Shown piece after piece: positions 15,512-44,188 of a DNA stretch of 64,000 nt. A program made the translations under genes and the position numbers. Source of the stretch: Bacteroidota bacterium (GTDB lineage Bacteria > Bacteroidota > Bacteroidia > UBA4408); the NCBI GenBank assembly GCA_963169745.1, contig CAUJCU010000010.1, forward strand, positions 257,487 to 321,486, written 5' to 3'. The notes under the pieces were generated by a model. It was not told the DNA's origin. It did not search any database and saw only the letters and a program-made list of their open reading frames with translations. Within the stretch, counting starts at the first letter, position 1. The number at the start of each line of letters is the position of its first letter.

Positions 15512-16135
15512 TCAATCCACTCGATTTATTTCTATACTTTTAAGCCAATATACATGACGTGGCCCGGTTTTTATATCATTAGTGCAAATTAATATCATAT
15601 CGCCCTGTTGTTTTATAGGTTTACCGTTCTCTTCAAAAATTACATACACATGGTCACCGGTAGGGTTATTATAAATTTCAGCCCACGAAAAAGTAGCCTT
15701 GTAATTATCAGTAGCTCGTGCTACAATATAAAAATTTCGGTCTTTATGACCTTCTTGCTTGATTTTTGCCTTATCTAAAATGTTGCGTAGTAAGACACCT
15801 TTACAGGTTTTATTCTCTTTCATATTGGCACCACTTTGACAAACAACAACAAAATTCTCAATAGTTGCAACCTCCATTTTCTTTAATGAATCAACCGTTA
15901 GTGTCAAATGATTTTCTATTTCACCCTGCACACTTACTTGTTTACTGTTGAACTTAGCGCTGTCTTCATCCGAAATAGCAACACAAGCATCATTACTCGT
16001 TTTTGTTTTTTCGGACATGTTAGTGTCAATTTGTTGCTTTGAATTTTCTATAACATTTTTCTTTTTGGAATGATTGGTACAACCGCACCATAAAAGGGTA
16101 TAAATGCTAATTAAAAGAAGACATATTTTTTTCAT
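15512..16135 (-). CDS. Lipoprotein with sulfite-oxidase-like molybdopterin-binding domain
   Basis: Lipobox 'LLWCGC'; 'LTVDSLKKMEVATIENFVVVCQSGANMKENKTCKGVLLRNILDKA' resembles oxidoreductase molybdopterin-binding fold. Confidence 0.7.
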   Translation of the reverse strand: MKKICLLLISIYTLLWCGCTNHSKKKNVIENSKQQIDTNMSEKTKTSNDACVAISDEDSAKFNSKQVSVQGEIENHLTLTVDSLKKMEVATIENFVVVCQSGANMKENKTCKGVLLRNILDKAKIKQEGHKDRNFYIVARATDNYKATFSWAEIYNNPTGDHVYVIFEENGKPIKQQGDMILICTNDIKTGPRHVYWLKSIEINRVD

Positions 16136-16169: not shown

Positions 16170-18179
16170 TTAATTATGATTATAAAAACGGAGCGTGATA
16201 AAGTAATTTCTTCCTTCTTCCGGATAGCCTTCAGTGAGCATATAATTTTGATCAAAAATATTGTTTACTCCGGCTACTAAACTTAAATAGTTCCAAACAT
16301 TAAAGGTAACCAAACCATTTATTAGTGTAAACTCAGGTGCTTTTGTCCCATAGCTGGTACTGTAACGAACAGAATTGTATTCTGTGCTTGCCATTAAATC
16401 AAGAATTGGTACCGGTTTATAGCTGATGTAAGTGTAAATTTTAGTATAAGGTACGCCCGTGAACAATACCGATGGATTGGTTAAATTGTGCATTTCGGTA
16501 TAGGTGTAATTTGAACGAATCAACAGGTTTTTACAAATCGCATAACCTAAAGATAGTTCAATCCCTTTAAACTCTGCTGCACCTGTATTTTGCATTTGCG
16601 ACTTACCGGGTTGCACATTGCTGACATTAAGTATAGCATCGCTTATATGGTTATAAAACAATGAGGTACTTAAGTTTAAATTTTTAATAAATATTCCAGA
16701 ATAACTTAAATCTAAATTTTGAGCCAATTCAGGTTTTAAATTAGGATTTGGTATGGCTGTTCCCATACGATATGAATAACGATCTTTGATAGTGGCAAAC
16801 CTTGATTTTACCGATGTTGTGAGGCCGATACCATGATTTTGGTTAAAGGAATAAAACATTCCGAGTTGACCGTTTTTAACTTTACTTGGGTTTGCTTTTG
16901 AATAATCCATGATAAGGTCTTTCTTACTGTTATAATCTTGCGCCTGAATGTTTGTACGCTCATTATAGCTGATACCGGGGATTAATACTAAATTTTTTGT
17001 TATTCTTGCTTTGTCTTCAATAGCAAAATAAAGCGTATTGTCTTCGAAACGTCTAATAGGCTCTCCTATATTATTTTCACGATGTACATCTTCTTTGAAT
17101 TGTGCTGAAATTTTAAGCTCATTATTGGGGATAATTGTTGTACCGTATTCTAAGTTTAAGCCATAAGTATAGTCGTTATAGTTGCTTTGAAACGCATAAG
17201 GTTTTTTTTGTGTGGAGTAGGTTGAGTCATCATAACTATTTATGGTATTTTTAAATATATCATAATAAATTCTGCTTTTGAGGTAATGATTTTCATGTAT
17301 CTTGTTGTTTGAAAGAAAATAATAAGTTTCTTTATCCCAAGCAGGCCATTGCCAGTAACGTGGGCTTTTTGAAAGTGTGTTTAATTTATCATCACCGGCA
17401 TATAATGGTGTGCCTTTGCTTCCATGTTGGTTTATATATCCTACTACATATTCTTGTTTTATTGTTGGTGTCCATCCTAATTTAAAATTTACTTTTTGTT
17501 CGGTTCTATAAGAGTTTTTTCGTTCACCTCCGCTTTCATGAGCATGAGCTAAATATTTTTTTGATAAGGTGTATGAGTCTCTATGCAAATAGGAAAAGCC
17601 TCCCTGTGCGTATAACTTCCCTAAATTAGTGCCTAGGTTTATGTTTCCGTTGTATCCGTTGGTATTAATAAGTCCTATAGCACCATCATACTCCAGCTTA
17701 GAGATTGGCTTTCTGGATATTAAATTGATAGTTCCTCCCATTGAGTTTGGACCAAACAACATGGACGAAAAGCCTTTCGATACATCAATAGCCGATAAAT
17801 CAAATGTTGTAAATCTGGCTAAATCAACATACCCATCGTAAGGCACATAAACCGGAATACCATCCATATAAACAGGAACTGCTCGTAAATCAAAACCTCT
17901 AATAGATATTGTAGATTCATTTCTTTGTCCAAAAGAAGTTAATGTAATTCCGGAAAGCATGTTGAGTGCTTTAGAAACTTCTAGCTTATTTTGCCCCCCT
18001 ATATCGGCTCGAGTTAATCTCGTTATATTGTTTTCTCGAGTTGTTGTTATAGTTACTTCACCCAATGAAAAAATTTTACTTGAAAGAGAATCATTTTTTT
18101 GAACTTTTAATGAATCTTTCGTTTGTGATGATACCCAAAAAGGAAAAAAACAGATTAGTGTTAAAACGATACTTTTCAT
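16170..18179 (-). CDS. TonB-dependent outer membrane receptor
   Basis: Signal peptide; plug 'LGEVTITTTREN..SKALNMLSGITLTSFGQRNESTISIRGFDLRAVPVYMDGIPVYVPYDG'; C-terminal 'NIFDQNYMLTEGYPEEGRNYFITLRF'. Confidence 0.93.
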   Translation of the reverse strand: MKSIVLTLICFFPFWVSSQTKDSLKVQKNDSLSSKIFSLGEVTITTTRENNITRLTRADIGGQNKLEVSKALNMLSGITLTSFGQRNESTISIRGFDLRAVPVYMDGIPVYVPYDGYVDLARFTTFDLSAIDVSKGFSSMLFGPNSMGGTINLISRKPISKLEYDGAIGLINTNGYNGNINLGTNLGKLYAQGGFSYLHRDSYTLSKKYLAHAHESGGERKNSYRTEQKVNFKLGWTPTIKQEYVVGYINQHGSKGTPLYAGDDKLNTLSKSPRYWQWPAWDKETYYFLSNNKIHENHYLKSRIYYDIFKNTINSYDDSTYSTQKKPYAFQSNYNDYTYGLNLEYGTTIIPNNELKISAQFKEDVHRENNIGEPIRRFEDNTLYFAIEDKARITKNLVLIPGISYNERTNIQAQDYNSKKDLIMDYSKANPSKVKNGQLGMFYSFNQNHGIGLTTSVKSRFATIKDRYSYRMGTAIPNPNLKPELAQNLDLSYSGIFIKNLNLSTSLFYNHISDAILNVSNVQPGKSQMQNTGAAEFKGIELSLGYAICKNLLIRSNYTYTEMHNLTNPSVLFTGVPYTKIYTYISYKPVPILDLMASTEYNSVRYSTSYGTKAPEFTLINGLVTFNVWNYLSLVAGVNNIFDQNYMLTEGYPEEGRNYFITLRFYNHN

Positions 18180-18205: not shown

Positions 18206-18229
18206 CACTATGTTTATATAGGAATAGTG
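18206..18229. promoter_or_regulatory. Candidate ModE-like operator upstream of TonB receptor gene (CACTATGT-N8-GAATAGTG)
   Basis: Inverted repeat (6 of 8 arm positions) with same 8-8-8 spacing as the repeat at 18592-18615. Confidence 0.5.
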
Positions 18230-18243
18230 ATGCTTAAAAAAAA

Positions 18244-18594
18244 TTAAAACTTTATTTTTAGGGCTGTTTTTTTAGTAAAATTTTGTACTTGTTTTTCTAA
18301 AGAATAGAACTTTTTAATAGCTTCTTCTCCTGCTTTGGTTATTTTGGTGCCGCTGCCATTACGCCCACCAAGAACTTTTTCAACCAAAGGTATTTTTGAC
18401 CTTTTATTCATATCTTCAACAAGCTGCCATGCTTGCCTGTACGACATCTTAATAGATTTTGCAGCATTGGTTATGGAGCCTGTTTCTTTTATTTTTTCAA
18501 GTAAAACAACACGACCAATTCCTAAAAATGGACCGTCATCTTCGTCAATCCAAACTCTAACTCTAACCGTATATTTCTTCTTTTTGGCTATCAC
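18244..18594 (-). CDS. Short ModE-like winged-HTH transcriptional regulator lacking the molybdate-binding domain
   Basis: 'VWIDEDDGPFLGIGRVVLLEKIKETGSITNAAKSIKMSYRQAWQLVEDMN' as in ModE N-terminal domain; protein ends there. TTG start at 18618 overlaps a -7 box, so GTG at 18594 is proposed. Confidence 0.82.
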   Translation of the reverse strand: MIAKKKKYTVRVRVWIDEDDGPFLGIGRVVLLEKIKETGSITNAAKSIKMSYRQAWQLVEDMNKRSKIPLVEKVLGGRNGSGTKITKAGEEAIKKFYSLEKQVQNFTKKTALKIKF

Positions 18595-18615
18595 TATGTA
18601 AATACAAACATAGTG
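18592..18615. promoter_or_regulatory. Candidate ModE-like operator: perfect 8-bp inverted repeat CACTATGT-N8-ACATAGTG
   Basis: Read directly; sits just downstream of the -7 box and over the proposed start codon. Confidence 0.6.
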
Positions 18616-18623
18616 CAAATATA
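18616..18623 (-). promoter_or_regulatory. Bacteroidota -7 promoter element TATATTTG for the ModE-like gene
   Basis: Exact TAnnTTTG on the minus strand, about 20 nt upstream of proposed GTG start. Confidence 0.55.
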
Positions 18624-18644: not shown

Positions 18645-18660
18645 TGTGATTGTTATCACA
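18645..18660. promoter_or_regulatory. CRP/FNR-type palindrome TGTGATTGTTATCACA (alternatively a weak terminator of moaCB)
   Basis: Perfect 6-bp arms with N4 spacer; centre about 40 bp upstream of inferred TSS of ModE-like gene; on minus strand it is followed by TTTTTATTTT. Confidence 0.45.
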
Positions 18661-18689: not shown

Positions 18690-19601
18690 TTACTCATGTC
18701 GGGCTCCTTTCATGACTTTGAAAATATGCAACACTGCAGGGAATAATGCATCCATACTTTCAGTTGCCCCGCGTGTTGAGCCCGGAAGACCTAATACTAA
18801 AGTGTTGCCAATTAAACCTGATATACAACGGGAAAGCATGGAGTAAGGTGTTCGTTGTTGTCCGTATGCCCGAATAGCTTCATCTATTCCGGGAATTCTT
18901 TTTTCTATAATACTTTCAAGTGCTTCGGTTGTAGTATCACGAGGAGATAGACCTGTGCCACCCGTTAATATGACCATGTTTGCATTTGAGATGCATAAAT
19001 TCTTTATTTTCTCTATAATTACTTCTTTTTCATCAGGAATAACAATATAATCACTTACATTAATAGGGTATTTTTGAAGCTTTTCAATGATGGCCTTTCC
19101 TGCTTTATCTTGCTTGTTTCCTTTTGAAATACTATCTGAACACACAATTACAGCGGCTTTTAATCCATTTATTTCCATATTTGCAAAATCACTTTTACCA
19201 CCTGATTTTTCAATTAGTTTAATATGTTCAATGCTGATGTTTTTATCTAATGGTTTCAACATGTCGTATATAGTAAGTGCCACTACTGAAGCGGCATGCA
19301 TTGCTTCTACTTCAACACCTGTTTTATAAATAGTTTGTATTTCAACACGAATTAATATTTCTAATCCATCAATTTCATGAAAAATGCTTGTAAATTCAAT
19401 AGGCAAAGGATGACAGTCAGGGATCATATCGCTGGTACGTTTTGCCGCAAAGAGACCTGCTGCCTTGGACATGGTAAAAATATCACCTTTGGGAACGCGT
19501 TTTTCTAAAATAGCCTTTATGGTTTGTTCTGAACTGACCTTAACTACTGCCTGGGCCACAGCTGTACGATGTGTTGTGCTTTTATGGGTAATATTAATCA
19601 T
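18690..19601 (-). CDS. Bifunctional MoaC/MoaB molybdopterin biosynthesis fusion
   Basis: MoaC 'SKAAGLFAAKRTSDMIPDCHPLPIEF', 'TGVEVEAMHAASVVALTIYDMLK' then MoaB/MogA 'LTGGTGLSPRDTTTEAL', 'LPGSTRGATESMDALFPAVLHI'. Confidence 0.93.
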   Translation of the reverse strand: MINITHKSTTHRTAVAQAVVKVSSEQTIKAILEKRVPKGDIFTMSKAAGLFAAKRTSDMIPDCHPLPIEFTSIFHEIDGLEILIRVEIQTIYKTGVEVEAMHAASVVALTIYDMLKPLDKNISIEHIKLIEKSGGKSDFANMEINGLKAAVIVCSDSISKGNKQDKAGKAIIEKLQKYPINVSDYIVIPDEKEVIIEKIKNLCISNANMVILTGGTGLSPRDTTTEALESIIEKRIPGIDEAIRAYGQQRTPYSMLSRCISGLIGNTLVLGLPGSTRGATESMDALFPAVLHIFKVMKGARHE

Positions 19602-19604
19602 GAC

Positions 19605-20045
19605 TTATTTATTTTCTTTCCATACAGATTCATTATTACTAATAATTTCTTTACCCCAAACAGGTAACTCTTTTTTTATACGCTCAACTATTTCTTCGCA
19701 GGCATCAATTGCAGCCTTACGATGTTTAGATGAGGTAAATACAAATAAACTGATTTCTCCGGCATTTACTCGGCCTATGCTGTGGTAAATATGCATACAG
19801 ATTAAATCGTACTTTGTAAAAATTTCTTCACGAATTAAGTGTGCTTTTTCCAATGCCATTTCTTTATAAGCAGCATATTCTATGGCTTGTACAAGGCCTC
19901 CATGTATTTCATCGGCCCTTACTTGCCCCAGAAAAATACTGTGTCCGCCAATATTTGTTTTTACTTGATGATGACTAATGGAATCAGAAATCATTGCTGG
20001 TGTTATGGCTCCTTCAATAAATATATCTTTTATTTTAACTGACAT
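19605..20045 (-). CDS. moaE: Molybdopterin synthase catalytic subunit
   Basis: 'GGHSIFLGQVRADEIHGGLVQAIEYAAYKEMA', 'HSIGRVNAGEISLFVFTSSKHRKAAIDACEEIVERIKKELPVWGKE'. Confidence 0.93.
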   Translation of the reverse strand: MSVKIKDIFIEGAITPAMISDSISHHQVKTNIGGHSIFLGQVRADEIHGGLVQAIEYAAYKEMALEKAHLIREEIFTKYDLICMHIYHSIGRVNAGEISLFVFTSSKHRKAAIDACEEIVERIKKELPVWGKEIISNNESVWKENK

Positions 20046-21159
20046 ATTCTTTCATTTTTTCAATAGTAAATAACTGAATTATACCTCCCTCAATGGAACA
20101 AATATTTTTATCGGGGAAACGTTTTTGCAGTGTTGCAGCAGCATAACGACTTCTTACACCAGTTTGACAAAAAAGATAAATAAATTTAAAATTGGGTAGC
20201 ACTCTTTCGTTATCCATGAGTTCTGACAAGGGCTGTTGTATATGCTCCAAACGAGTTAATTTTGGGTTTTCATGAAGCTCTCTGATGTCAATTAAAACAA
20301 CATCATGAGGATTATTTTCTTTCTTAGAAATAGCTTTTTGCCATGTTATATCTGCCAATGAAGAGTTACCTGTGGATCCACAAAGAACTTTGTAATCGGT
20401 TTTACGGAATGCTTCAATAGTTTTTGGAGCATGGCAGTTTAAAGTATTGGGATGAATTTTTAATTCATAAAAAGAGTAATCAAGCATACCATAAATCATC
20501 ATTTTGTTGCATAGCGTTTTACCATAACCGCTTAGCCATTTGATTGCTTCGGTTGCCATCATTATTCCAATCATTCCGGGTAAAACACCTAGCACGCCTG
20601 TTTCACTGCAATTAGGGATTTCGCTTGAAGTAGGAGGGATAGGAAATACATCACGATAATTTATTTTTATTCCATTTTCATCAGGGGTATTGAAAAGGGC
20701 TACCTGTCCTTCATTTTTATAAATAGCACCAAACACAAGGGGTTTATCAAGCAATATGCAGGAATCGTTTACCATGTATCGTGTTTCAAAATTATCGGTA
20801 CCGTCAATAATTAAATCGTATTGCTTCATAGTCTCAATACTATTTTCAGTATTTAAATAATAAGGGAGCGCAATTACCTGAATATCTTTGTGTTTTCTTT
20901 TTAGATAATGAACTGCTGTCTCTGCTTTTGATTTATTAATGTCATTTTCTTCAAAAATGACTTGACGATTTAAATTGGATAAGGCGACCTTATCGCCATC
21001 AACAACAGCTATAGTACCAACACCTGCTGCAGCTAAATACAGCAGTATGGGGCAGCCTAAACCACCAGCACCTACAACCAATACTTTAGCGTTGAGTAGT
21101 TTTTGCTGAGCTGCCTCGCCAAAGCCAGTTAATAATATTTGCCGTTCAAATCTGCTCAT
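20035..21159 (-). CDS. moeB: MoeB/ThiF/HesA-family adenylyltransferase with C-terminal rhodanese domain
   Basis: 'LLNAKVLVVGAGGLGCPILLYLAAAGVGTIAVVDGDKVALSNLNRQVIF'; C-terminal 'FIYLFCQTGVRSRYAAATL'. Confidence 0.9.
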   Translation of the reverse strand: MSRFERQILLTGFGEAAQQKLLNAKVLVVGAGGLGCPILLYLAAAGVGTIAVVDGDKVALSNLNRQVIFEENDINKSKAETAVHYLKRKHKDIQVIALPYYLNTENSIETMKQYDLIIDGTDNFETRYMVNDSCILLDKPLVFGAIYKNEGQVALFNTPDENGIKINYRDVFPIPPTSSEIPNCSETGVLGVLPGMIGIMMATEAIKWLSGYGKTLCNKMMIYGMLDYSFYELKIHPNTLNCHAPKTIEAFRKTDYKVLCGSTGNSSLADITWQKAISKKENNPHDVVLIDIRELHENPKLTRLEHIQQPLSELMDNERVLPNFKFIYLFCQTGVRSRYAAATLQKRFPDKNICSIEGGIIQLFTIEKMKEYVS

Positions 21160-21163
21160 GGGT

Positions 21164-21403
21164 TTAACCTCCTGAGAAAGGTGGTAGCAATGCTATTTCG
21201 TCACCGCTTTTAATTGATAAATTTTGAGTAATGATATTTTTATTTACTGCTATACTCATTTTAATGTCATTCAAAACGGGGTAGGTTTGCTTTATGTAGT
21301 GCATTAAAGCATCTGTGTCAGAAATATTTTCTACCATTAATTCTTTAGTCTGCATCTTTTCAGCTAAAATTCCAAAAACTATTATTTTTATGTTAGCGGT
21401 CAT
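21164..21403 (-). CDS. moaD: MoaD/ThiS-family sulfur carrier
   Basis: 79 aa; C-terminus 'GDEIALLPPFSGG' with terminal Gly-Gly. Confidence 0.9.
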   Translation of the reverse strand: MTANIKIIVFGILAEKMQTKELMVENISDTDALMHYIKQTYPVLNDIKMSIAVNKNIITQNLSIKSGDEIALLPPFSGG

Positions 21404-21590
21404 TGTGAATGTTTTCTACGTAAAATAGCTGTTTAAATTAACCGGATTAAAAGTGAATATGACATTGCTTGTGTATAAATGCGGCAACTATCATACCCTA
21501 TAATCTAATTTACTACTGTACTATTTTCTAAAAAAAAATTAATTTCAGGAACTTACAAGTCTTAAATTTTTCATTTAAAAGCTATCTTTT

Positions 21591-22169
21591 TCAATTTTCA
21601 AAATTAACTAAATCTTTTGGTTTATTTATATTTACAAACGCATCCGAATGTTCTTTTTCAAAAATATCCATATTCACAATTTTGCTTTGAACGCCCAAAA
21701 TAAGATCTAACATTTTTAATTGACCATGAGCAATTCTTTTTTCAATCTCAAATTTTAGTGTTAGCTTATAAATTGCACATAAAGGATGTAACTGTTCCTT
21801 TGATTGGGCCACGCATATTTGCTCTTGATCGCTCTTAGAAATTAAATGATGGATAATTTTAGAAGTCATAAAGGGCATATCACAGCTTAATATTAACACT
21901 TCATCTGCTTGCGAATGGTTCATTGCTGTTAAAATACCACCTAAAGGACCTTTTTCCTGAACAATATCTTTCAAAACGGGGAATCCAAATGTTTTATAGG
22001 CATTATTATTTGCAACAATATTTATGGGTAATTTCATATTTTTCACCTCATCTAAAATATGCTGTATCATAGGTTTGTTTTGGAATAAAATCATACCTTT
22101 ATCCTGTCCCATACGGCTGCTTTTTCCTCCGGCCAATACATAAACTTCTATACTTTTTGAACTGTTCAA
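21591..22169 (-). CDS. mobA: Molybdenum cofactor guanylyltransferase
   Basis: 'VYVLAGGKSSRMGQDKGMILFQNKPMIQHIL', 'GPLGGILTAM', 'LILSCDMPFM'. Confidence 0.92.
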   Translation of the reverse strand: MNSSKSIEVYVLAGGKSSRMGQDKGMILFQNKPMIQHILDEVKNMKLPINIVANNNAYKTFGFPVLKDIVQEKGPLGGILTAMNHSQADEVLILSCDMPFMTSKIIHHLISKSDQEQICVAQSKEQLHPLCAIYKLTLKFEIEKRIAHGQLKMLDLILGVQSKIVNMDIFEKEHSDAFVNINKPKDLVNFEN

Positions 22170-22903
22170 GCCAACAAAAACTTAGTAGAGGCAATAAGTA
22201 AAACCACAGCTAACAATCGTTTTAGTAGTTGATTGTTAAAATGATGGGCACCAAAGTATGCCCCTGCAATACCGGCAGCAACAGTTACCGGCATCAGAAC
22301 CTGCAACTGCGAATTAATTTGCAAATGAAAAGAACCTGCACCAATTAACCCGGCAATAGAATTGAGAAAAATAAATAGAGCGCTTACTGCTGATGTTTCT
22401 TTTACGTTGGTCCAACCCATTAGCAAAAGCAAGGGTGAAAGAATAATACCACCACCAATACCAATTAGCCCTGAAAGAAAGCCTATGGCACTACCCATAA
22501 TGGCAGCTAACCACCAGCTTTTTTTAATAATGATTTTATCATTAGCCGGAAATAAATTAAATAACCGAAAAGCAGGAAATAACAACACAATACCTAAGAT
22601 AAATTTATAGTATTCGGTTTGAATGGTGATACTTCCTCCTAAAAAAGCTGCTGGTATAGAAAACAAAGACAGCCAGAGAAATAAACGAGAAGGGAAAATG
22701 CAAACTTTACGAAAGGAAATAAAAGCCACGCCCGAAACAAATATATTTAGTACAAGAGCTGTAGGACGAATTTGTTCCGGTACAAAATGAAACAGAGTTA
22801 AACACATTAGGTAACTGCTGGCACCTCCATGGCCAACGGATGCATACAAAAATGCAAACATGGGCATTAGCAGCAACAAAATCCAAAAAGCATATTCCAT
22901 CAT
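22166..22903 (-). CDS. TauE/SafE-family sulfite-exporter-like permease
   Basis: Multi-TM; 'FAFLYASVGHGGASSYL', 'GFLSGLIGIGGGIILSPLLLLMGW'; 4-nt overlap with mobA. Confidence 0.9.
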   Translation of the reverse strand: MMEYAFWILLLLMPMFAFLYASVGHGGASSYLMCLTLFHFVPEQIRPTALVLNIFVSGVAFISFRKVCIFPSRLFLWLSLFSIPAAFLGGSITIQTEYYKFILGIVLLFPAFRLFNLFPANDKIIIKKSWWLAAIMGSAIGFLSGLIGIGGGIILSPLLLLMGWTNVKETSAVSALFIFLNSIAGLIGAGSFHLQINSQLQVLMPVTVAAGIAGAYFGAHHFNNQLLKRLLAVVLLIASTKFLLA

Positions 22904-22907
22904 AGGG

Positions 22908-24083
22908 CTATAAATTATAAACTTCTACTAATGTATTTGCCGGAACATATTCTATGCTTTCCTCAATAGCAAACAAACAATCTGCTTCTGCAAAAGGAAG
23001 CAGGTTGAATGAATCTTGTCCGGGCAAAATTACCAATTGGTTATTTAATTTACGTGCTTTCATAAAGTAAGTAAGCCCTTTTTTTACATACAAATCATTA
23101 GCTATAGGCATTACAGCATGGGGTAAAAAAGTATTCTCATAGCCCATCATTGATAATAGTGATGGTTTTACATAAAGATAAAAACAAGTGATAACTGCAG
23201 CAGGGTTGCCGGGTAAGGCAAAAATAAGCTTATTGTCTTTTTTACCTACAAATAAGGGTTTCCCGGGTTTCTGCTTCACTTTGTAGAATAGTTCTTTAAC
23301 ACCAGCACTTAGCAAAGTTTCACGAACAATATCATAGTCTCCAGCAGAAATTCCTCCAGATAAAATTAAAACATCATGTTGTTCTAAATACTCATTTATT
23401 TTTTTTTGAAGCAACTCTTTCTCATCTCGAACCCAACAACTAGCGTATTTTTTTATTCCCAAATTTTCTAACAAGGCTAATAAAGCCGGCTCATTTGAAT
23501 TATAAATATGACCCGGTTGCAAAGTGGTTCCATTTTGCTGCAATTCATTTCCGGTTACAATAATTCCAACTGAAGGAATATCATATACAGAAACAGAGGT
23601 AACACCAACAGAAGCCAATAAACCAATATTTCCGGGGCGAATGATGTTACCGGTTTTTGCAATAATATCGTTATTTTTATTTTGTGAGCCTTGCAAACGA
23701 ATGTTTTGACCCTTTTTAATTTGTGAATTATCGAATGAAACTATACCGTTACTAACCGTGCACAGTTCTTGTTGAATAACGGTGTCGCAGCCTTTTGGTA
23801 TGGCAGCTCCTGTAAAAATACGTGCTGCATTTTCGGGTAAAATTGTTTTGACTGAATAATCGCCAGCTTGTATGTTTTGAGAAATTTGAAATGAATTTTT
23901 ATCAGGTTGAAATAAAAAAGCATAACCATCCATGGCGGAGTTGTCAAATGGTGGAACATCAATTTTTGATTTTACATCAGCCGATAGAACATGATTTAAT
24001 GAACGTGATAGCAACACGTCAACGTTTGGCATTTTTATTACCTGTTGTGCTAATATTTGTAAAGCTTCGTTAACAGATACCAT
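22908..24083 (-). CDS. moeA: Molybdopterin molybdenumtransferase
   Basis: 'IDVPPFDNSAMDGYAF', 'AARIFTGAAIPKGCDTVIQQE', 'ILSGGISAGDYD', 'KPGKPLFVGKKDNKLIFALPGNPAAVITCF'. Confidence 0.95.
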   Translation of the reverse strand: MVSVNEALQILAQQVIKMPNVDVLLSRSLNHVLSADVKSKIDVPPFDNSAMDGYAFLFQPDKNSFQISQNIQAGDYSVKTILPENAARIFTGAAIPKGCDTVIQQELCTVSNGIVSFDNSQIKKGQNIRLQGSQNKNNDIIAKTGNIIRPGNIGLLASVGVTSVSVYDIPSVGIIVTGNELQQNGTTLQPGHIYNSNEPALLALLENLGIKKYASCWVRDEKELLQKKINEYLEQHDVLILSGGISAGDYDIVRETLLSAGVKELFYKVKQKPGKPLFVGKKDNKLIFALPGNPAAVITCFYLYVKPSLLSMMGYENTFLPHAVMPIANDLYVKKGLTYFMKARKLNNQLVILPGQDSFNLLPFAEADCLFAIEESIEYVPANTLVEVYNL

Positions 24084-24094
24084 AAGTTCGTTAA

Positions 24095-25078
24095 TTATCC
24101 TCCAATATCAATCATACTGCGGTTTTTAATTGCAGAAGCATCGATGTTTTGGACTGAGGGTTTGAACTGTCCACCTAGCATTTCTTCCTTTTTCAAAACA
24201 CATTGTTGAATAAGTGTCAAAATATCTTTGCCGCTTCGCAGGGCACCAAGAATATCTGTTTCATGTTTGGAGAAAAGGCAGTTTTTCATTTTTCCATCAG
24301 TGGTTAAACGGAGGCGGTTACAACCGTTACAAAATGGTTGAGTCATGGAACTAATAACAGCAAATGTGCCTATATGGTCTTTTACTGTAAACTTTTTTGC
24401 TGTGTCATGAACGTTGTCTTGTAATTTTTCGAAATCAAATTTTGAAGCAATCAAATCCATAATTTCAGCGTATGAAAATATCTTATTGCTCGACCACGAA
24501 TTCCCGGCAAAGGGCATAAACTCAATAAAACGTATATGTACGGGATTGGTTTTTGTCCATCTGATAAAGTCTATAATTTCATTTTCATTTTCGCCTTTAA
24601 TAACTACCATATTTATTTTAACATAAAAATCATGGTTTAAAAGCAGATCAATATTTTTTTTAACCCTCTCAAACTCATCTCTTCCTGTAATTTTAAAAAA
24701 GCTTTTACTGTTTAACGAGTCTAAACTTACATTCACAGATTTTAAGCCTATTGATTTAAAAGTATCTATAAACTCATGAACAAAAACTCCGTTAGTGGTC
24801 ATTGCCAATTCAACAGGGAACTTTGCAAGTCGTTCTAAAATGTTTCGTATATCTTTTCTTACCAAAGGCTCGCCCCCTGTAATGCGGATTTTATTGATAC
24901 CCTGCGACACAAAAATGGAAGCAATTTTTTCAATTTCTTCGGCAGTCATTCGAGTGCGACCCGAAAAATATCCCTTAGGTAAATCAACAGGATTACAGTA
25001 GGAGCAACGGAGATTGCATTTGTCAGTTATTGAAATTCTGAGATAGTCGTGTATGCGTTCAAATTTGTCTTTTAGCAT
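24095..25078 (-). CDS. moaA: GTP 3',8-cyclase (radical SAM)
   Basis: 'DYLRISITDKCNLRCSYCNP', 'RITGGEPLVRKDI', 'CNGCNRLRLTTDGKMKNCLF'; internal ATG at 25078 is the likely start. Confidence 0.94.
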   Translation of the reverse strand: MLKDKFERIHDYLRISITDKCNLRCSYCNPVDLPKGYFSGRTRMTAEEIEKIASIFVSQGINKIRITGGEPLVRKDIRNILERLAKFPVELAMTTNGVFVHEFIDTFKSIGLKSVNVSLDSLNSKSFFKITGRDEFERVKKNIDLLLNHDFYVKINMVVIKGENENEIIDFIRWTKTNPVHIRFIEFMPFAGNSWSSNKIFSYAEIMDLIASKFDFEKLQDNVHDTAKKFTVKDHIGTFAVISSMTQPFCNGCNRLRLTTDGKMKNCLFSKHETDILGALRSGKDILTLIQQCVLKKEEMLGGQFKPSVQNIDASAIKNRSMIDIGG

Positions 25079-25169
25079 AATAAAACTGTTACTCTTAATT
25101 TTGGGATTAATCCGTTGAACAAAGTTACGAAGAAATAATGAGCTAAGTATTTGTATAGGGTATAAAAAT

Positions 25170-25853
25170 TCAACGCAATGAAATACTAAAATATTTTTTA
25201 AGTAAAAGCTCGGTTTTTGCTTTTTCTTCTGCACTAAAGTATTTTTGAGCTAAAGCAAAAATAACATTCTCTTCTCGAAACAAATGCAGTTTTAACAACT
25301 CCACCAATGAAGTACCTTGTTCAACCGCAATGTCGGTCACAATAGCCCGTGAAGCGGCATCTGTAAGGCGTGAGGCTATACCCATTAAACTGAAAGACAA
25401 AGCAGCCAATTGCATGGTTTTAATATGGTCGTCTTCCATCATGTCAACAGCCGTTTCAGGAATGTCGGCTGAAGAATGTTCTCCTTTGTTTAACAAGCAA
25501 TCGTGAAGTATTGGGAATAAAATACGTTCTTCTTTTAAATGATGTAAAACAATTTTATCGTCTAAAAATTGAAAGAAAGAGCTCAGTTCCTGATTAAGTT
25601 TTTTATTTATACCCTCTTTTCTGATATTTAGTAAAGCGGTTTCAAATTTTTCGATTTCACCCGATATAACTTTGTGTTCATCGCTAAGGTGTTTCAAAAA
25701 CGGAGAAAGCTCATCATAAGCAATTGGGCTCACACTTGGAGGTCTGTATGCATCAGGCGGATCCATTGGAGAGTACTCAGCTTTACCGTTAGTATCTTTT
25801 TCTACGTTTCTTTTTAAGTAATCTGATTCAGAAAAAATGTTGTTGTTTTTCAT
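25170..25853 (-). CDS. Hemerythrin HHE-domain protein
   Basis: 'HLSDEHKVISGEIEKFE', 'HHLKEERILFPIL', 'MMEDDHIKTMQL', 'LLKLHLFREENVIFALA'. Confidence 0.8.
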   Translation of the reverse strand: MKNNNIFSESDYLKRNVEKDTNGKAEYSPMDPPDAYRPPSVSPIAYDELSPFLKHLSDEHKVISGEIEKFETALLNIRKEGINKKLNQELSSFFQFLDDKIVLHHLKEERILFPILHDCLLNKGEHSSADIPETAVDMMEDDHIKTMQLAALSFSLMGIASRLTDAASRAIVTDIAVEQGTSLVELLKLHLFREENVIFALAQKYFSAEEKAKTELLLKKYFSISLR

Positions 25854-40570: not shown

Positions 40571-43500
40571 TTACCATTCCAATTTTTCCATTTTTTTAAC
40601 TACTACGTGTGTATCACGTTGTGGTGCAATAGGCCCCCAATAGTTGAAGTGATAAGAGAACTGTCCATAACCACCACTCAAATAATTAGGCTTAAGATGT
40701 GTGCGGGTTACACTATTATGTCCACCACCTCGTTTCCCACCTCTTAACTGTGATTTTGGAATACCTATCGTCCGTTCAGGAATGTGATAAACAATACAAC
40801 TTCCCGGGGCAATACGTGAACTAACCACAGCTCTTGTTACATACACACCATGGTCATTATGCACTTCAACCCAGTCATTATCCTTTATACCTAAAGTTTC
40901 AGCATCTTTTTCACTAAGCCAGCATGGTTCAATACCACGCGAAAGCGTAAGCATACGCAGATTGTCCATGTACGTAGAGTGAATATGCCATTTACCATGC
41001 GGAGTAAGATAGTTGAGTGCAAGTGCTTTTCCTTTTTTCCAAGTTTCTCTTAAATCGCCATAAACTTCAGGGCGTGGAGCTGGTTTATATGTTGGTAAAT
41101 GCTCGCCATGTGAAATATATAATTCGTGGTCAAGATAAAAATGCTGCCTTCCTGTTAATGTTCGCCAAGGAACTAATCGTTCTATGTTATAAGTGTATGC
41201 TGAATAGGCACGACCATCATTCATTAATCCTGACCAAAGGGGAGATGTATTGTATCTTCTTGGTTGTGCTGCTAAATCAGCATAACGTAGTTTTACATCT
41301 TTGCTTCCTTCTCCTAAATCAGCTAATGTTAATCCGGTTTTCTTTTCCATGTTTTTATAGGCTTGTACATTCAACTTTCCGTTGGTTAAGGTGGAAAGGT
41401 TAAGTACAGCATTGGCAGCCCATTCATCTTCCTGAATTGAGGGGAGTTTTTTACCTTGATATTCTCGTTGATGGAAATGATTGGAAACACACATATCATC
41501 ATATTCTTCTTTGCAGAAATAATGATTGCCATGTGCGCCCAATCCTTTTTCACGAATGCCTTCTCCTAGCGTAATGAACTTTTCATACAACTGGGTATAG
41601 TCACGTTCAACAATAGCGAATTTTGGCATTGTTTTACCCGGAATTGCTTCACACTCTCCCTTAAACCAATCTTTAATGGTTGGTTGTGTTATTTCATCAA
41701 CAGAGTCGTGTTGTAATGGGGTCATCACAATATCTTTTTGCACTTCGTTAAAATAAATTTTAGCCATTTCGCTGGTTGCTTTAGCCAGATGCTTGAAAAT
41801 ATCCCAATCTGTTTTTGATTCCCAAACGGGTGCAATAGCTTGCCCTAATGGATGAATGAAAGAGTGCATATCAGTACTGTTCATATCAGTTTTTTCGTAC
41901 CAAGAGGCAGCCGGGAGAACAATATCAGAATACAATGCTGATGAATCCATTCGGAAATTCAGATCAACTACCAAATCCAATTTGCCAACAGGTGCAATGT
42001 CATGCCATTTTACTTCTTTTGTTTTATCTTCAGAATCGGTAGCAATTATGTTGGAATGTGTACCTAAGTAATGATGCAGTGCATATTCTGTTCCTTTCAT
42101 GCTTCCATGAATAGCATTACCACGCCAGATGTACCATACTCTTGGGAAATTTACTTCTGATTCTGGATCATTAATAGCAAATTCCATTTTACGTGATTTT
42201 AATTGCTCAACAGTGAAATTCACAATTTCTTCATTTGTTTTTGCCCCGTTTGCAGCTGCTTCTTTAGTCAGTTCCAAAGGGTTTTTATTGAACTGTGGAT
42301 AATAAGGCATCCACCCGTTTCTAACGGAAGTAAAAATGGTATCCGCAACATGTTTTTTACTCCAATCATTCTCAGGTACAGGATTGTAATGATAATGGAA
42401 ACCATCGTAACGGTATTGGCAGGTATTAATATAATGCCAAAGAGGTGCCTGTTGCAAACGCGGTGCTGCTACCCAATCTTTAGCAAAGGTAATTCCTCCC
42501 CATGAATCAACAGGGGCTAATTTCTCCTGACCAACATAGTGATTTAACCCACCACCGTTTTTGCCAATACAGCCGCATAAAGCCAAAGCCATTGCTGCCG
42601 AACGGTAAATTAAATTAGCGTGGTACCAATGGTTTATACCAGCACCAATTATTACCATACATTTCCCTTTCGTTGTATCGGCAGTTTTTGCCCATTCATT
42701 GGCAAACTGAATAACAGTTTTAGCATCAATACCAGTAAAAATTTCTTGCCAGGCCGGAGTATATGAGGCTTCCTTGTCGGTGTAATCTTTTGGGTATTGT
42801 CCTTGCAAGCCACGATCTACACCGTATTGCCCCATCAGTATATCATAAATAGTAGCAACCGGAACTTTTCCGGTTACCGTGTCCATATATTTTACCGGAA
42901 TACCTCTTAAAAATTTATTGTTTAATCCATATTCAATAAATTCTGTTTGAAGCACACCATCATTTTTTTGAAGTAAGGTAAGTACCGGGTCGAATTTTCT
43001 ATCGGTTTCGCTACACTCTAATTTCATATTCCATTTTCCTCCCGCCTTTTCCCAACGATGCCCCATAGCTCCTTTAGGCACAACAAATTCTCCGGATGTT
43101 TCATCAATATTCAGAAATTTCCAGTCGCCATTTTCAATGTCTTTCCATTTTGTTATTTCATTGGCTCGAACCAGGCGCCCCGGCTTGTAGTGGTCACCTT
43201 CTTTTTCAAGATGAATTAAGAATGGACTATCCGTATATTGCTTGGTATAATCAATGAAATAAGGTGTTTGTTTTTGGTGATGGTATTCTTTTAATATAAT
43301 GTGTGTTACGGCCATCCAAAAAGCATTATCTGTACCCGGATGAACGGGAACCCATTGATCAGCATATTTGCACACTTGACTGAAATCGGGTGAGAATACT
43401 ACTGCTTTTGTTCCATTGTGGCGAGATTCTGCAAAGAAATGACAGTCTGGTGTTCGGGTCATGTTCAGGCATGCACCCATATCGGCAATAAATTTTGAAT

Positions 43501-44188
43501 TATACCAGTCAGCACTTTCGCATACATCGGTTTGCTCTCCCCACATTTCAGGAAAATGAGTCGGAAGGTCACAATACCAATCGTAGAAACTTAAATTAAA
43601 TCCACCAAAAAGCTGTAAAAATCGTGCTCCGGCAGCATAACTCAACATCGACATGGCTGGAATAGGAGAGAACCCCGCTACACGATCGGGGCCATGTTTT
43701 TTTGCGGTATAAATATTTGCAGCAGCCATAATTTCAAGTGCTTCATCCCAGGTTGCTCTGCGAAAACCACCTTTACCTCTTGACCACTGATAGCGTTTTC
43801 TTTTTTCCTTATCTTTCTGAATATTTTCCCAAGCTTTTAGAGGGTTTCCACCAGATTTTTCCTTTTCTTCTCTGAAAATATCGAGTAGTGAACCCCGAAT
43901 TAAAGGGTATTTAATCCTTAATGGACTGTATAAATACCAAGAGTATGAAATTCCTCTCTGGCATCCTCGTGGTTCATAGGGAGGAAGTGAGTCTTCTAGT
44001 AAGGGATAATCAAGCTGCTGTGTTTCCCATACGACAATACCGTCTTTCACATGAATTTGCCATGAGCAACCTCCGGTACAGTTTACACCGTGCGTACTTC
44101 TAACGATACGATCATGCTGAAAGCGATTGCGGTAAAATTCTTCCCATTGGCGGGTTTTAGGCGAGATAATGTCTTCTATCCAACTCAT
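40571..44188 (-). CDS. narG: Respiratory nitrate reductase alpha subunit
   Basis: '[23 protein letters not shown]', '[31 protein letters not shown]', 1205 aa, no obvious Tat signal. Confidence 0.97.

Follow-up and report, generated by a model that had tools for sequence, protein, structure and literature searches.

We analyzed a 64,000-nucleotide stretch of contig CAUJCU010000010.1 (the window) from a Bacteroidota bacterium of the lineage UBA4408, in which a gene for a short ModE-like regulator lies between two similar 24-bp inverted repeats, and a gene for a TonB-dependent receptor follows the second repeat. The features concerned are these:

18592-18615, minus strand: predicted ModE-type operator 1 of the modE-like gene, 24 bp, 8-8-8, overlapping the GTG start directly after the -7 element
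18206-18229, minus strand: predicted ModE-type operator 2 (receptor class), reading CACTATTC-N8-ACATAGTG on the gene strand, in the gap from the modE stop to the receptor start
18244-18594, minus strand: short ModE-like regulator of 116 amino acids, GTG start, one winged-helix domain and no molbindin domain
18616-18623, minus strand: -7 element TATATTTG of the modE promoter, Bacteroidota TAnnTTTG type, abutting operator 1
18645-18660, no strand assigned: palindrome TGTGATTGTTATCACA of the CRP/FNR-family type, its centre 37.5 bp upstream of the box start
16170-18179, minus strand: TonB-dependent outer-membrane receptor, predicted target of operator 2

A sequence-only reading of this DNA had described both repeats as like ModE boxes, placing one directly after the modE -7 box and a second copy in the short gap before the receptor, and its coordinates and 8-8-8 geometry were confirmed. 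The repeat at 18592-18615, CACTATGT-N8-ACATAGTG, is perfect (0 mismatches); the copy at 18206-18229 has 2 mismatches and lies 14 nt past the modE stop and 26 nt ahead of the receptor ATG. The GTG at 18594-18592 is the most likely start of modE, which makes the last three bases of the first repeat the start codon. Both elements have the form of a ModE box, a 24-bp inverted repeat with 8-bp arms of the type C-x-x-TAT...ATA-x-x-G. Across the whole genome (2,992,271 bases), sequences with no more than one mismatch to CACTATNT-N8-ANATAGTG were found only at these two places, and a relaxed pattern matched 14 places in this genome, equal to the 14 of the reversed control, which gave no wider regulon beyond the two sites. 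When the window was shuffled with its dinucleotides preserved, a mean of 0.28 matches at up to 3 mismatches was obtained, and two matches appeared in 3 of 100 shuffles. These shuffles leave room for chance, and the decision therefore rests on conservation.

Conservation of the repeats in orthologous loci, the test that the sequence-only reading had named, was examined in 80 loci, comprising the window and 79 non-duplicate loci fetched via the short ModE from named genomes. The loci are mostly from Bacteroidota, with some from Thiotrichales-type gammaproteobacteria; many belong to metagenome-assembled genomes, and related lineages do not count as independent. An unsupervised palindrome search of the two flanks of modE (158 regions, gaps of 4 to 12) showed that 8-bp arms with a gap of 8 fitted best, with a log-likelihood of 725 versus 106 for shuffled sequence. 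The half-site recovered was C-[G/A]-N-T-A-T-[G/T]-[T/C], which gives the palindrome C[G/A]NTATGT-N8-ACATAN[C/T]G. Sites of at least 14 bits were present at the modE start (39), within 260 nt past the modE stop (65) and elsewhere (10), while 2.2 were expected in all 698 kb. The box was thus strongly conserved, with at least one site in 72 of the 80 loci and both sites in 26. In related loci the modE box overlaps or directly precedes the start codon, and the second site falls between the modE stop and a gene for a receptor or for transport; the boxes stand at molybdate transport and molybdenum cofactor (Moco) genes.

With a matrix built free of the window, the two elements still ranked first and second in the window (19.0 and 17.6 bits; the next match scored 12.4), and 60 simulated windows yielded 4 matches of at least 17 bits in all. 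The published Escherichia coli ModE consensus, ATCGNTATATA-N6-TATATANCGAT (cited in PMC545781), scored 14.7 bits with the same matrix; the E. coli modA operator as given in the sequence-only reading (24 bp, 8-bp arms) agrees with this consensus. In a second genome sample, an adjacent site was found in 13 of 20 non-redundant loci, the window excluded, and in three further loci a site immediately precedes moeA in a moeA-modE operon. The strict canonical box CGTTAT-N12-ATAACG was present in 24 of 50 genomes with a short ModE versus 29 of 246 without it (Fisher p=4e-8). This footprint strongly supports the ModE-box interpretation, as a prediction from sequence.

We also analyzed the arms base by base. 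Co-variation at the outer arm pairs 2/23 and 3/22 exceeded that in every one of 2000 shuffles, with 73 complementary pairs versus a shuffled mean of 55 at 2/23 and 60 versus 31 at 3/22, as expected if a symmetric dimer reads the site. On the gene strand, operator 2 has TATTC where the operator 1 type has TATGT, which accounts for its two mismatches. Receptor-type sites most often have T at position 7 and C at position 8 (43 of 65 each), so the mismatches are not decay. The outer bases CA..TG in one site of a locus go with CA..TG in the other (rank correlation 0.49, p=0.01, 26 loci). Start-codon overlap was ruled out as the cause of these outer bases, since CA..TG also occurs in the receptor sites of the same genome and in most relatives the ATG comes just after the box. 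An attempt to tie the CA..TG class to a protein residue gave Asn43 as the best column (p=4e-5), which is confounded by phylogeny.

About 30 loci have a TonB receptor gene behind the second site. In other loci this place is taken by a TauE/SafE permease, a porin followed by a ModA-type binding protein (with a TOBE protein also present in two such loci) or a MOT1-family molybdate transporter, and Moco genes were also downstream targets in relatives. The presence of ModA, MOT1, Moco genes and the TauE permease among the targets links the circuit to molybdate. The site also moves along with its target: in locus L057, where the receptor gene lies elsewhere than behind modE, it has its own site 103 nt upstream. 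A receptor orthologue was found in 10 of 296 sampled Bacteroidia genomes, all 10 of which carry the short ModE (carried by 50 of 296); the probability of this co-occurrence by chance is 8e-9, not corrected for kinship, and the 10 genomes represent 8 families. We infer the substrate of the receptor, molybdenum, from this context. A run of 7-8 T is mostly present between the modE stop and the receptor box in loci L016-L095 (18230-18243 in the window).

Elements of the modE promoter recur at fixed distances from its box. The TTTG right before the modE box recurs in relatives, its last G in 32 of 39 loci. Of 39 modE loci, 19 have TGATN4ATCA (up to 1 mismatch) at -44 to -42 relative to the box, where 3.2 were expected in the whole 100-nt region; at receptor sites it was not enriched (4 versus 5.2 expected). 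The palindrome in the window agrees with the CRP/FNR site forms (TGTGA-N6-TCACA or TGATN4ATCA) and stands at the position of a class II activator, taking the transcription start from the -7 element. Given this class II position, a CRP/FNR-type regulator probably activates the modE promoter, and ModE itself probably holds it in check.

The ModE-like protein contains one ModE-type winged-helix domain (TIGR00637, E=6.7e-24; Pfam HTH_1). A 36-member alignment compared with the PDB matched the ModE structures 2IJL, 1B9M and 1O7L, and the fold of an AlphaFold (AF2) model with a pLDDT (predicted local distance difference test) of 91.6 matched the same entries, the best being E. coli ModE 1B9M and Agrobacterium tumefaciens ModE 2IJL. 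The C-terminal tandem molbindin (TOBE) domains of a full-length ModE are absent. The 116-residue protein belongs to the family of the ModE DNA-binding domain and is not a full ModE. Its distribution is patchy: one genome of the same genus has two short modE copies (L100 and L152), and three other sampled congeners have none.

We then considered how such a protein would receive its signal. At profile level, the window genome showed no TOBE domain, ModA or MOT1. Among 48 genomes with a short ModE, the window genome included, the TOBE domain was absent in 43 and ModA in 38. Since 43 of the 48 carriers lack a TOBE domain, the profiles used, within their sensitivity, exclude a separate molbindin partner for most carriers. 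The sensing partner cannot be a recognisable molbindin protein, because these genomes encode none. The CRP/FNR-type site, the conserved arm sequence of the receptor class and the genome without a molbindin domain all go beyond the sequence-only reading.

Further genes of the locus are as follows:

15512-16135, minus strand: small lipoprotein-like protein that carries an Oxidored_molyb (molybdopterin-binding) domain; its gene lies 34 nt past that of the receptor and is co-conserved with it
18690-25234, minus strand: Moco cluster of moaA, moeA, TauE/SafE permease, mobA, moeB, moaE and a moaC-mogA fusion, as annotated open reading frames; the moaA 5' end is uncertain
22166-22903: TauE/SafE (TSUP) permease within the Moco operon

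The Moco cluster lies upstream of modE and the receptor and lipoprotein-like genes lie downstream, all on the minus strand. The lipoprotein-like gene comes after the receptor in most receptor loci, and in L049 and L053 it stands directly after modE and the box; its product is a possible periplasmic partner of the receptor. TauE/SafE is the first gene after modE and the box in about 12 related loci (for example L058, L061, L073 and L116). In the window genome, which lacks ModA and MOT1, the TauE/SafE permease is a candidate inner-membrane molybdate permease. The window also carries the nitrate reductase operon narGHJI (40571-44188 and neighbours), so molybdenum is needed; no ModE box was found upstream of this narGHJI. 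Genes for a NarK-like MFS protein, a carbonic anhydrase and cytochrome c lie beside it.

Taken together, the data indicate that the two repeats are very probably ModE-type operators, bound by a dimer of the 116-residue ModE-like protein encoded between them. Several points weigh against this interpretation. No site of at least 14 bits was found in 8 of the 80 loci, the arms in the window carry CA..TG where the majority has CG..CG, and no clear promoter of the receptor itself was identified. The TIGR00637 score of the protein (83.8 bits) is under the NCBI cut-off of 98.5, and the protein lacks the molybdate-binding domains that define a full ModE. The genome encodes no TOBE domain, ModA or MOT1, which leaves a molybdate signal as a presumption; we infer binding by the short ModE, repression and a molybdenum signal from sequence.

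Chance resemblance of two AT-rich repeats, for which the shuffled windows left some room, is refuted by the footprint, in which 72 of 80 loci hold a site against the 2.2 sites expected and the window-free matrix still finds both window sites; we regard it as the least credible of the explanations considered. The repeats might instead act as RNA hairpins, a 5' untranslated region element at modE and a terminator after modE. Both lie on transcribed strands, and the modE repeat folds to -8.5 kcal/mol. However, folding is weak in the receptor-class sites, which average -2.2 kcal/mol (38 of 65 above -2) and at pairs 7/18 and 8/17 show conserved bases that do not pair; the T-run precedes the repeat with none downstream, and the arms agree with the known ModE DNA consensus. 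The hairpin or terminator explanation was rejected on the weak folding, the conserved non-pairs and the missing downstream T-run, and is highly improbable. It is slightly less improbable, though still unlikely, that another regulator binds the repeats and that ModE is merely a neighbour. The assignment to ModE is itself read from sequence, but the sites match the ModE consensus, occur at modE's own promoter across many lineages and, in the canonical form, are enriched in genomes with a short ModE.

A far more serious alternative concerns the signal and leaves the operators with the ModE family. The signal may be tungstate, the molybdenum cofactor or one of its intermediates, or redox state and not free molybdate, or ModE may be a constitutive damper, with FNR/CRP-type control as the real switch. 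The protein and most of its carriers lack a molbindin domain, the sensing of the single-domain ModE of Desulfovibrio was likewise reported as 'not clear' (Rodionov et al. 2004, PMC545781), and the CRP/FNR-type site stands at a fixed distance in about half of the modE promoters. On the other hand, ModA and MOT1 are among the targets, which fits feedback from molybdate status, and no pocket for an alternative ligand was identified. We consider this alternative plausible, if somewhat short of even odds. To a comparable, tentative degree we propose that these Bacteroidota have a molybdenum regulon built on a stand-alone ModE DNA-binding domain in cells with no molbindin. Metal or cofactor status would then have to be sensed by a route not described for ModE, since the cells lack any molbindin domain. 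The regulon would control the TonB receptor, through which molybdate or a molybdenum complex would cross the outer membrane, and, in relatives, a TauE/SafE permease that may stand in for ModABC.

If the repeats are ModE operators, as we favour, their positions suggest how they might work. Operator 1 extends from the -7 element to the start codon; a dimer bound there would sit over the transcription start and block transcription of modE, an autorepression. Binding at operator 2 would shut a separate promoter that serves the receptor gene and, behind it, the gene of the molybdopterin-fold lipoprotein. Under molybdenum scarcity, ModE would release the operators and the uptake genes would be turned on. 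A CRP/FNR-family activator at TGTGATTGTTATCACA probably turns the modE promoter on, for example at low oxygen when nitrate reductase is needed. The ModE box would thereby be extended to Bacteroidota with a defined consensus. The TonB receptor, the molybdopterin-fold lipoprotein and the TauE/SafE permease become candidate molybdenum-uptake proteins for a phylum in which most short-ModE carriers lack ModA. The sensing of molybdenum by single-domain ModE, a loose end for 20 years, becomes testable.

The sequence-only reading knew of no ModE box described in Bacteroidota, and the open-access literature, which omits most subscription papers, likewise yielded no Bacteroidota ModE box and no ModE-controlled or molybdate TonB receptor. 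In other listed lineages the same type of box occurs at molybdenum genes, with a full-length ModE in Geobacter; Bacteroidota do not appear there by title. The Desulfovibrio ModE (Rodionov et al. 2004, PMC545781) also consists of a DNA-binding domain only. Its predicted motif, CGGTCACG-N14-CGTGACCG, is unrelated to the Bacteroidota box, and chimeric MOP proteins are present there. The short ModE of A. tumefaciens (2IJL) is a single domain of similar length and the best match by TM-score (0.72-0.77); it belongs to a different phylum, and the likeness lies in protein fold and length. The E. coli ModE shares with the protein described here the winged-helix DNA-binding domain and the signatures SY[KR]xAW and GGKGGGG, and its operator shares the 24-bp core, the 8-8-8 geometry and the C-x-x-TAT / ATA-x-x-G arms. 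In contrast, the E. coli protein has two C-terminal molbindin (TOBE) domains, whereas the Bacteroidota half-site favours TATG[T/C], with outer bases CA..TG in the window, and the predicted target here is a TonB receptor instead of modABC.
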